A DNA stretch of 64,000 bases from Flaviflexus equikiangi (GTDB lineage: Bacteria; Actinomycetota; Actinomycetes; Actinomycetales; Actinomycetaceae), in contig NZ_CP059676.1 of NCBI RefSeq assembly GCF_014069875.1, positions 310,001-374,000 on the forward strand, given 5' to 3'. Below, one piece after another: positions 24,144 through 34,562 of this stretch; position 1 is the stretch's first letter; every line of letters starts with the position of its first letter. Below the pieces are notes generated by a model. The model had not been told where the DNA came from and made no database searches. It saw only the letters and a program-made list of their open reading frames with translations. The position numbers were made by a program, and so were the translations under genes.

Positions 24144-24494
24144 AACTGCTCAGTTTTCGATTGCCGGAAGTGCACCAAATTCAATTGCCGCCGACACCAA
24201 TGCCGTAGGCCGTAGGCCGAGGGGATTTTCTTCTGTATCTACAGACGGAGTCTTCGTATCCCTTCGGTTCTTACAGTGCTTCGTGGTCAGTGAGATCTTC
24301 CGCGCCTCTCTCGCGGAACCTTGACCTTTTCTGTCCGCAGTCCCCGCTAGACTCAAACCACAATCAAGAAGTTCGACGTGAAGCCTCTCAGCTTGTCGAC
24401 TGGCAACCGCTTATCGCTAGCGGTGCCCCTGGGAGAAGATTGGCCCTCGATCAAAAGATCCGAGTGGAAGACAGCGACATTCAAGGGAAATCTC
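24144..24494. other. Intergenic region at the right edge of the island
   Basis: Contains the likely IS21 terminus, a short CCGTAGG tandem repeat near 24203 and a TCTGTA-TC-TACAGA dyad at 24232-24245. The open frame continues upstream of 24495 to 24378 but lacks a good ribosome site there. I see no other gene. Confidence 0.4.
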
Positions 24495-32689: not shown

Positions 32690-32885
32690 GCACGATCCTT
32701 GCTAGCGCGGAAGAGACCGCTGCCGGTCCCTCTCGATTGTAGGAACGAAACCGCGGCCTTGCCAGAGACGCTAAGCACCCTCCGTCCGATATGAGACGTC
32801 CACCTTTGCTCTTGCGCGGTGACGGAAGTTGTTGATAGTTTCACGACATCGCATTTTCGCGATACATCGAACATGAGGACTGATC

Positions 32886-32969
32886 ATGGTGTCTCACCTC
32901 CACACGCGCGCAGCTGCTGACGTTACGTCCGCGCGCATGTGTTGTTCGATGATGTGCCGAATGATCTGA
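32886..32969 (+). CDS. Cysteine-rich leader peptide upstream of tsuAB
   Basis: 27 aa: begins MVSHLHTRAAADVTSARM and continues CCSMMCRMI. ATG 32886 follows ATGAGGACTGATC. Three Cys codons lie at 32940, 32943 and 32955, near the end, which is the design of actinobacterial cysteine attenuators. It lies 127 bp upstream of a thiosulfate uptake operon. Ribosome stalling at the Cys codons under sulfur limitation would change folding of the RNA behind it. 32690-32885 contains no gene that I can support. Confidence 0.65.
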   Translation: MVSHLHTRAAADVTSARMCCSMMCRMI

Positions 32970-33046
32970 TCGACCGTTCGCGCTCCCACGGAGCGCTGTC
33001 CAGATCATCGGCCCACGCCCCGTGGGCTTACCGTACCCTCGTGGGC
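32961..33046 (+). promoter_or_regulatory. Putative attenuator RNA with competing hairpins
   Basis: ATGATCT (32961-32967, the end of the leader peptide frame) can pair with AGATCAT (33002-33008). GCCCACG (33011-33017) can pair with either of two identical CGTGGGC copies (33021-33027 and 33040-33046), so two stems exclude each other. Switching by leader translation is inferred. Confidence 0.45.
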
Positions 33047-33096
33047 TAGCCGCGTCCTGGCAGCGCTCTCCTCTACCCACAACCAGAGAGAGAACT

Positions 33097-34161
33097 ATGC
33101 TAATTTCCGGCCTTATCCTCGGCGTCGTCCTAGGATTCATCTTCCAACGGGGACGCTTCTGCGTCACCGGCGCGTTCCGCGACGTGTGGCTGAGCGGATC
33201 CACCCGCTGGCTCACGGCCTTCTTCATCGCCATCGCCATCCAGGCCGTTCTCGTGAACGCCATGATCGCGGGCGGACTCATCAACCCCGGTATCCCCACT
33301 CTCGCCCTCGGCGCTGTCGTCGGCGGATCCTTCCTCTTCGGCATCGGCATCGTCCTTGCCGGAGGCTGCGCCACCGGAACCTACTACCGGTCCGGGGAGG
33401 GCCTCATCGGATCGTGGGTCGCTCTCGCCTTCTACGCCTTCACCGCATCCGCCATGAAGTACGGCATCGGGGCTGATGTCACTGCCAGCCAGCGCAACGA
33501 GACGCAGGACGCGACGACGATCCAGGACACTCTCGGCATCTCCGTGTGGGTGCTTGTCGTCGGCTTCGCCCTCATTGTCGCCTCCCTGCTCGTCCGCCAG
33601 GCGCGCCGTATCAGCGCACCGCTTGCGACTCTCCCCGCCCAGAAGATCGGGATCGCCCATCTCCTGTTCGAGAAGAAGTGGACCCCGAATGTGACAGCGA
33701 TCCTCCTCGGCCTGCTCGCGGCCCTGGCCTATCCACTGTCGCAGGCAACGGGACGCAATGCTGGCCTCGGAATCACGACGCCCTCAGCCAACATCGTCCA
33801 GTTCTTCACCACCGGCGACACGTCCTACATCGACTGGGGAGTCCTGTTCGTCCTCGGCCTGATTCCCGGTTCCTACATTGCCGCGAAGGCTTCGGGGGAG
33901 TTCCGGCTGCGGGCTCCCGATGCTGAGACGACGACGCGTGCGATCGCGGGCGGCACGCTCATGGGTGTCGGCGCTTCTATCGCAGGAGGCTGCACCATCG
34001 GCAACGCACTCGTCCAGACGGCGCTCTTCTCCTGGCAGGGCTGGATCGCCCTGCTCTTCACCTTCCTCGGTGTGGGGGCAGGCGTGCGACTGTTCGTCAC
34101 CTCCCGCCGCCGTCCCGGAGCGGCACCCGTCGAGATCCCGTCCCTCACCGTCGGCTCCTAG
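33097..34161 (+). CDS. tsuA: Thiosulfate transporter TsuA (YeeE/YedE family)
   Basis: 354 aa integral membrane protein of two homologous halves. Each half has the signature with a conserved Cys: GGCATGTYYRSGEG near residue 90 and GGCTIGNALVQTALF near 300, plus FQRGRFCVTGAFRD at the N-terminus. In TsuA these cysteines line a path for thiosulfate. ATG 33097 follows GAGAGAGAA. A TusA-like gene follows at 34194, the usual partner. It sits behind a Cys-codon leader peptide, which suggests induction when cysteine is short. Confidence 0.85.
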   Translation: MLISGLILGVVLGFIFQRGRFCVTGAFRDVWLSGSTRWLTAFFIAIAIQAVLVNAMIAGGLINPGIPTLALGAVVGGSFLFGIGIVLAGGCATGTYYRSGEGLIGSWVALAFYAFTASAMKYGIGADVTASQRNETQDATTIQDTLGISVWVLVVGFALIVASLLVRQARRISAPLATLPAQKIGIAHLLFEKKWTPNVTAILLGLLAALAYPLSQATGRNAGLGITTPSANIVQFFTTGDTSYIDWGVLFVLGLIPGSYIAAKASGEFRLRAPDAETTTRAIAGGTLMGVGASIAGGCTIGNALVQTALFSWQGWIALLFTFLGVGAGVRLFVTSRRRPGAAPVEIPSLTVGS

Positions 34162-34193
34162 CCGTTCGTCTACCGAAAGAAAAGAGAAGAACC

Positions 34194-34493
34194 ATGGGTT
34201 TCCTCAACCTCATCACACCCCAGAAGAAGAACGTCGAACCGATTTCCGCACAGCAGCCGGGCCCGTCGAAGAAGTATCTCCTCGACACCCTCGGAGAAGT
34301 GTGCCCCTTCCCGCTCATCGAGGCGAAAAGAGCGATCGCACCGCTCAACAGCGGTGACGAGCTGCAGATCGACTTCGACTGCACGCAGGCCACGGACTCG
34401 ATCCCGGCATGGGCGGCGCAGAACGGACATACCGTGACAGACTTCCGCCAGGTCGATGCCGCGTCATGGACCGTGACAGTGAAGAAGGCGTAG
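34194..34493 (+). CDS. tsuB: TusA-like sulfur-carrier protein (TsuB/YeeD)
   Basis: 99 aa. The TusA core has the sulfur-carrying Cys in GEVCPFPLIEAK at residue 37 and the strand-helix pattern of the SirA fold. An extra 25-residue N-terminal segment precedes it. TsuB works with TsuA to bring thiosulfate in and hand sulfur on. ATG 34194 follows AAGAGAAGAACC. A strong terminator follows at 34536. Confidence 0.82.
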   Translation: MGFLNLITPQKKNVEPISAQQPGPSKKYLLDTLGEVCPFPLIEAKRAIAPLNSGDELQIDFDCTQATDSIPAWAAQNGHTVTDFRQVDAASWTVTVKKA

Positions 34494-34535: not shown

Positions 34536-34562
34536 GAAGCGGGGAGTTCAACTCCCCGCTTC
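34536..34562 (+). terminator. Terminator after tsuAB
   Basis: Perfect 13-bp arms (GAAGCGGGGAGTT and complement) around a single C, 42 bp after the stop. The rest of 34494-34758 should hold the mevalonate operon promoter; no clear boxes were identified. Confidence 0.75.

Follow-up and report, generated by a model that had tools for sequence, protein, structure and literature searches.

The leader of the tsuAB genes in Flaviflexus equikiangi is probably a cysteine-responsive, ribosome-mediated attenuator, a reading to which we give a probability of roughly 0.7 from sequence comparison and RNA folding models, and by which the cell would probably turn on sulfur import at cysteine shortage. In the window, that is, the whole stretch of 64,000 nucleotides analysed, our computations identified a short upstream open reading frame (uORF) with Cys codons near its end, its conservation and position before tsuA, a stem formed by its end, and a switch between two folds. 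We infer the translation of the uORF, the stalling, the sign of the response and the way in which a hairpin reduces expression, as follows: a ribosome would translate the uORF upstream of tsuAB and, when charged tRNA-Cys is scarce, would stall at the tandem UGU codons 19-20; the stall would leave 32956-32968 free to pair with 33001-33012, which would prevent hairpin 33011-33027 and allow tsuAB to be expressed. With plentiful cysteine, the ribosome would proceed to the stop codon and cover the first arm, the hairpin would form, and expression would be cut. An earlier note on this DNA had proposed translation-sensing attenuation; the conservation of the peptide and of its position, the stem at the uORF end and the fold switch all speak for that proposal, but the choice between two CGTGGGC copies that formed part of it is not supported.

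The leader uORF and its target genes

The elements of the leader and the genes that follow it are these:

32848-32863, no strand assigned: palindrome ATCGC-N6-GCGAT, candidate operator, just 5' of the leader uORF
32875-32879, + strand: Shine-Dalgarno (SD) sequence GAGGA of the leader uORF; GAGGAC is kept in the window, L002 and L003
32886-32969, + strand: leader uORF MVSHLHTRAAADVTSARMCCSMMCRMI, 27 aa, with relatives 5' of tsuA in several genera
32940-32945, + strand: tandem Cys codons 19-20 (TGT TGT), proposed sensing codons; the ATGTGTTGTTCGAT block is identical across three species
32955-32957, + strand: Cys codon 24 (TGC), at whose second base stem 1:2 begins
33097-34161, + strand: tsuA (YeeE), thiosulfate importer, by TsuA/YeeE family matches
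34194-34493, + strand: tsuB (YeeD), TusA-like sulfurtransferase, by TsuB/YeeD family matches

The SD lies six bases 5' of the ATG, the Cys codons 19, 20 and 24 start at 32940, 32943 and 32955, and the stop codon is 127 nt 5' of tsuA, in agreement with the earlier note, which had described a 27-aa frame upstream of tsuAB with a good ribosome site and three Cys codons near its end. Thiosulfate feeds cysteine synthesis, and this frame, whose translation is predicted, has the clustered codons for the end-product amino acid that are expected of an attenuator. The tsuA product matches NF041049 over its full length (E 1.6e-115, 385.9 bits, the strict cut-off of 645 not being reached) and PF04143 with 336.7 bits against a cut-off of 27, which places it in the TsuA/YeeE family; that of tsuB matches NF041048 (1.4e-34, under the strict NCBI cut-off) and also PF01206.

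Few frames combine an SD with three or more Cys among their last 12 residues: the + strand of the window has two, the uORF included, and Markov-1 random sequence matched in dinucleotide composition has 0-1 per 64 kb strand. No match to the uORF peptide was found in the Pfam and NCBIfam searches, nor to NF042936 (the Ms4527A family of Cys-rich leaders) at E values up to 10; a genome search with NF042934 (cis_reg_atten leader peptides) gave no match at the uORF, and the Rfam search returned no family at the leader. The conserved SD argues against a leaderless polycysteine uORF of the mycobacterial type. Elsewhere on the + strand of the window, a SAM-IV riboswitch at 24362-24478 scores above the Rfam gathering threshold.

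The palindrome that precedes the uORF is also perfect in the nearest relative (L002) and has one half-site altered in L003. Its pattern has 9 copies in the genome versus 0 for the reversed pattern, and among the 8 copies retrieved, the 7 other than that of tsuAB sit inside open frames of >150 aa. The palindrome may be an operator, in which case tsuAB may be under two layers of control.

Conservation of the leader peptide

A profile built from 11 leader peptides (A1) was run against 213 genomes from the family and gave 23 matches at E<1e-3, of which 22 have tsuA 0.2-0.5 kb downstream on the same strand (in L062 as a remnant only), the remaining one (L064) being near a contig end. Because of these matches before tsuA, we do not regard the uORF as a chance frame. 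In the window's own genome the leader is the sole convincing match, and the three genus genomes without tsuA have none. Two other species of the genus carry MVSFLRIHAAAAAEQAACMCCSICCRMI and MLSFLHTRTAPTAGTATVACMCCSMRCRMI upstream of tsuA, and leaders from the family's other genera terminate in MCMRCLVRAF, MCMRCLVQAI, MSCGSMHGRMC, MCCSMRSRMC, CMCTCECRR or LCTGECR. The cross-genome alignment that the earlier note had suggested therefore favours it as far as the peptide is concerned, since both peptide and position before tsuA are kept in several genera. A scan of extra genome contigs yielded no further leader-bearing species: L031 has the sequence of L004, and L032 showed no leader in our scan.

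Two tsuA loci from a different family of the order (L078 and L079) have the leaders MFRLHLFSRRVIDLMYVCTCGCCS and MFRLHLFSRRVIDLMYVCTSSCRA, whose MFRLHLFSRRVIDLMYVC... sequences weakly resemble NF042936 (Ms4527A), below the cut-off; our scan detected no leader of this sort at most of the remaining tsuA loci from outside the family. Since these two leaders belong to a different family and are weakly Ms4527A-like, tsuA may have acquired Cys leaders on more than one occasion.

Pairing at the uORF end and the competing hairpin

The RNA elements between the end of the uORF and tsuA are the following:

32956-32968, + strand: arm 1 (GCCGAATGATCTG), overlapping the stop codon, 12 bp with 33001-33012
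32980-32996, + strand: inner hairpin GCGCTCC-CAC-GGAGCGC within stem 1:2, predicted probability 0.94-1.0 in all states
33001-33012, + strand: arm 2 (CAGATCATCGGC), pairing with arm 1 over 12 bp and a single bulge
33011-33027, + strand: hairpin 3:4, GCCCACG-CCC-CGTGGGC, competitor of stem 1:2, with no T run behind it
33040-33046, + strand: second CGTGGGC copy, with no support for a role, predicted to pair with 33011-33017 at <=0.08
33066-33092, + strand: hairpin hiding the SD of tsuA (CTCTCCTCT with AGAGAGAG), the SD being mostly paired in every predicted state

The earlier note had rightly paired the uORF end with 33002-33008, a segment within arm 2. The stem was seen in the window, in L002, in a second genus and in an Actinomyces-like group, with sequences that differ and pairing that stays compatible; across groups it has 11-13 bp, its second arm lying 29-79 nt past the stop. 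In L002 the uORF end is the same and the partner, CGGATCTTCGGC, differs at two bases, still giving 12 bp with the bulge shifted, and the counterpart of the inner hairpin is GCGCTC-CTGA-GAGCGC; the stem of L065, from another genus, is perfect over 11 pairs. Stems of the form GCCUGG...:...CCAGGC, 11-13 pairs long, occur in the Actinomyces-like group, and their outer parts co-change between subgroups (UUCGGGCG:CGUCCAGC, CUCGGGCG:CGCCCGGC, UCC:GGA). The second base of the last-Cys codon position is the first paired base of the stem in the window, in L002 and in the Actinomyces-like group, and the last of these retains the GC of that codon even where it now encodes Arg or Ser. This retention is among the reasons why we consider it very improbable that the peptide works as a small protein in its own right or by nascent-chain arrest, and not as a codon sensor: the N-terminal part (S-F/H-L-H-T-R) is partly retained in the genus, but the sequence outside the Cys cluster varies freely among genera, and the stretches of highest nucleotide identity within the genus are the Cys block and the stem arm.

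Compared with dinucleotide shuffles, the duplex between the uORF end and the downstream segment has p=0.017 both in the window and in L002, and p<=0.03 in 18 of 31 loci, many of which are close relatives. Against an attenuator counts L003, where the peptide is the same and the stem is not significant (p=0.33), and so do L005, L009, L010, L078 and L079, whose duplexes do not differ significantly from shuffles. In alignment A3, 97.4% of cells are paired in stem 1:2 versus 24-52% for slid registers; formal covariation within A3 does not go beyond that of shuffled columns, a test that gives no support because the stem is nearly invariant there, and the support for the stem comes from the comparison between groups.

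The repeats reported earlier, GCCCACG at 33011-33017 and CGTGGGC at 33021-33027 and 33040-33046, are correctly placed. The idea that the one GCCCACG chooses between both CGTGGGC copies is nonetheless unsupported: the second copy, with a predicted use of <=0.08 and no counterpart in L002, is probably incidental. What the folding models support instead is that the uORF-end stem competes with the first GCCCACG:CGTGGGC hairpin. With the ribosome at Cys19/Cys20, the predicted probability of stem 1:2 in the window is 0.82-0.93, that of hairpin 33011-33027 being <=0.06 when the RNA extends to +85 or +130 past the stop, whereas with the ribosome at the stop the stem falls to 0 and the hairpin rises to 0.84-0.86, at the most 0.98. 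In a shorter RNA (+66), the hairpin partly coexists with the stem (0.36-0.71). For L002 with RNA to +140, the values at the Cys codons versus the stop are 0.92-0.93 versus 0 for the stem and 0.01-0.03 versus 0.75 for the hairpin; with RNA to +105 and the ribosome at the stop, the hairpin is not populated. The loss of downstream pairs on stalling exceeds that in shuffles with p=0.005 (window, +130), 0.08 (window, +85) and 0.055 (L002). In the models of the window and L002, the two folds are therefore mutually exclusive and set by ribosome position.

Two further results count against the attenuator: stalling at the last Cys codon would already keep stem 1:2 from forming, and the alternative hairpin that we guessed for the Actinomyces-like group is not populated in folding. 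We also rejected a 2:3 helix in that group (GCCACGTC:GACGTGGC), which is 93.8% paired, with two both-side changes (one row each), and is unpopulated in the ensembles.

How the switch could reach tsuAB expression

Hairpin 33011-33027 switches with ribosome position, yet it has no T run: a T-run rule found no terminator-like site there, which counts against the attenuator. The hairpin would most likely lower expression by premature termination, as a U-less hairpin or through Rho, and less likely by way of translation. The window also has, at 34536-34562 and 3' of tsuB, a long perfect hairpin (GAAGCGGGGAGTT-C-AACTCCCCGCTTC) whose T run is weak and not clean, and which is probably the end of the tsuAB operon transcript; U-less termination is not far-fetched here, because this hairpin too is without a clean T run.

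The translational route has been considered as an explanation of its own, in which ribosome position would open or close the hairpin at the SD of tsuA, or ribosomes would reinitiate from the uORF. It fits the pairing of this SD with CTCTCCTCT in the window and with TTCTCTCT in L002, the ability of GGAGCGCTG (32990-32998) to pair with CAGCGCTCTCC (33061-33071), and the translation attenuation described for the cysteine biosynthetic genes of Mycobacterium smegmatis (PMC13236596). We nevertheless judge it unlikely, given that the SD of tsuA is predicted to be free at about 0.10-0.19 in the window regardless of ribosome position and at 0.00 in L002, with little change in other loci, and that a rescue by pairing of GGAGCGCTG with CAGCGCTCTCC would have the wrong sign. 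Switching of the SD was accordingly rejected; its being hidden in all states counts against the attenuator as well.

A second Cys leader and the amino acid sensed

A second uORF of this kind, MGTLIPTSSCVCCRCLICL, lies 0.18 kb 5' of cysK (L099:1325-1384; G000:C1, about 1660976) and has the SD AGGAGG. All six genus genomes have a Cys-rich frame before cysK, and in five of the six a stem, GAGUGCCGGGC:GCCCGGCACUC, immediately follows the stop codon, with both-side changes at two pairs (GC to AU). By its sequence features, the cysK leader is independent support for leader-based cysteine sensing in the genus.

It also bears on whether methionine, alone or together with cysteine, could be the amino acid sensed, given the Met codons among the Cys codons. 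The window peptide has 4 Met codons in its last ten, Met18 is invariant in alignment A1, and a Streptomyces lividans leader before metNIQ, ending in CMCRRMCAF, has been interpreted as a Met leader (PMC8079986). This sensing of methionine is improbable in our judgement: the leaders of L010, L030, L078 and L079 keep Cys with no Met beside the cluster, Met is missing from the Cys clusters of the cysK leaders, and it is clustered Cys codons, not Met, that recur in both the tsuA and the cysK leader sets. Cysteine synthesis is, moreover, generally known as the destination of thiosulfate.

Comparison with known systems

For Actinomycetaceae as a whole, we see an even chance that there is an undescribed set of SD-led cysteine attenuators whose peptides at tsuAB and at cysK are unrelated, whose stem is nucleated either by the last Cys codon or immediately past the stop, and which work with no U-run terminator; such a set would tie thiosulfate import and cysteine synthesis directly to the charging of tRNA-Cys. 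If this is true, thiosulfate uptake is coupled to tRNA-Cys charging across a large actinobacterial family, and control by Cys leaders gains a new target; the recurrent stem at the last Cys codon, with the absence of a U-run terminator, would offer a handle on attenuator output in high-GC Gram-positives.

The earlier note had called this use of a leader undescribed. Our literature search, mostly of open-access papers, found no description of a Cys leader for tsuA, but Actinobacteria are known to have Cys-rich leaders in front of sulfur genes, and the tsuAB leader therefore belongs to a known kind. Leader peptides of cys operons were predicted in 2005 for Mycobacterium, P. acnes and B. longum (Seliverstov et al., PMC1262725); like the tsuAB leader, they have runs of Cys codons near the stop and no obvious intrinsic terminator, and Rho was suggested, whereas they lack conserved hairpins and the tsuAB leader has a conserved stem at the uORF end. 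The Cys-rich uORFs of mycobacteria are reported to be cysteine-responsive in later accounts of Canestrari et al. 2020 (PMC9094748, PMC9031893, PMC13236596). As these accounts present them, they (among them NF042936, Ms4527A) are also short, have clustered Cys codons and precede sulfur or cysteine genes, and they share the cysteine-responsive attenuation that is only proposed for the tsuAB leader; the Ms4527A-type uORFs are, by the same accounts, leaderless, in contrast to the tsuAB leader, which has an SD, does not match NF042936 and has tsuAB as its target.

Two further systems are close in logic. In Rhodobacterales, cysS is preceded by a Cys uORF attenuator (the uORFC-8-2 motif, PMC8632094), which has in common with ours a uORF with Cys codons, two stems and the logic of ribosome-mediated attenuation, and differs in its intrinsic terminator with a U run, its phylum and its target. 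The S. lividans metL leader (PMC8079986) is alike in its CMCRRMCAF end, a Cys/Met cluster, in the sulfur-compound importer downstream and in having no typical terminator; it differs in being leaderless, in preceding a methionine importer and in having been read by its authors as a Met leader. Set beside these systems, the tsuAB leader is a known type of switch with a new target and an RNA layout of its own.
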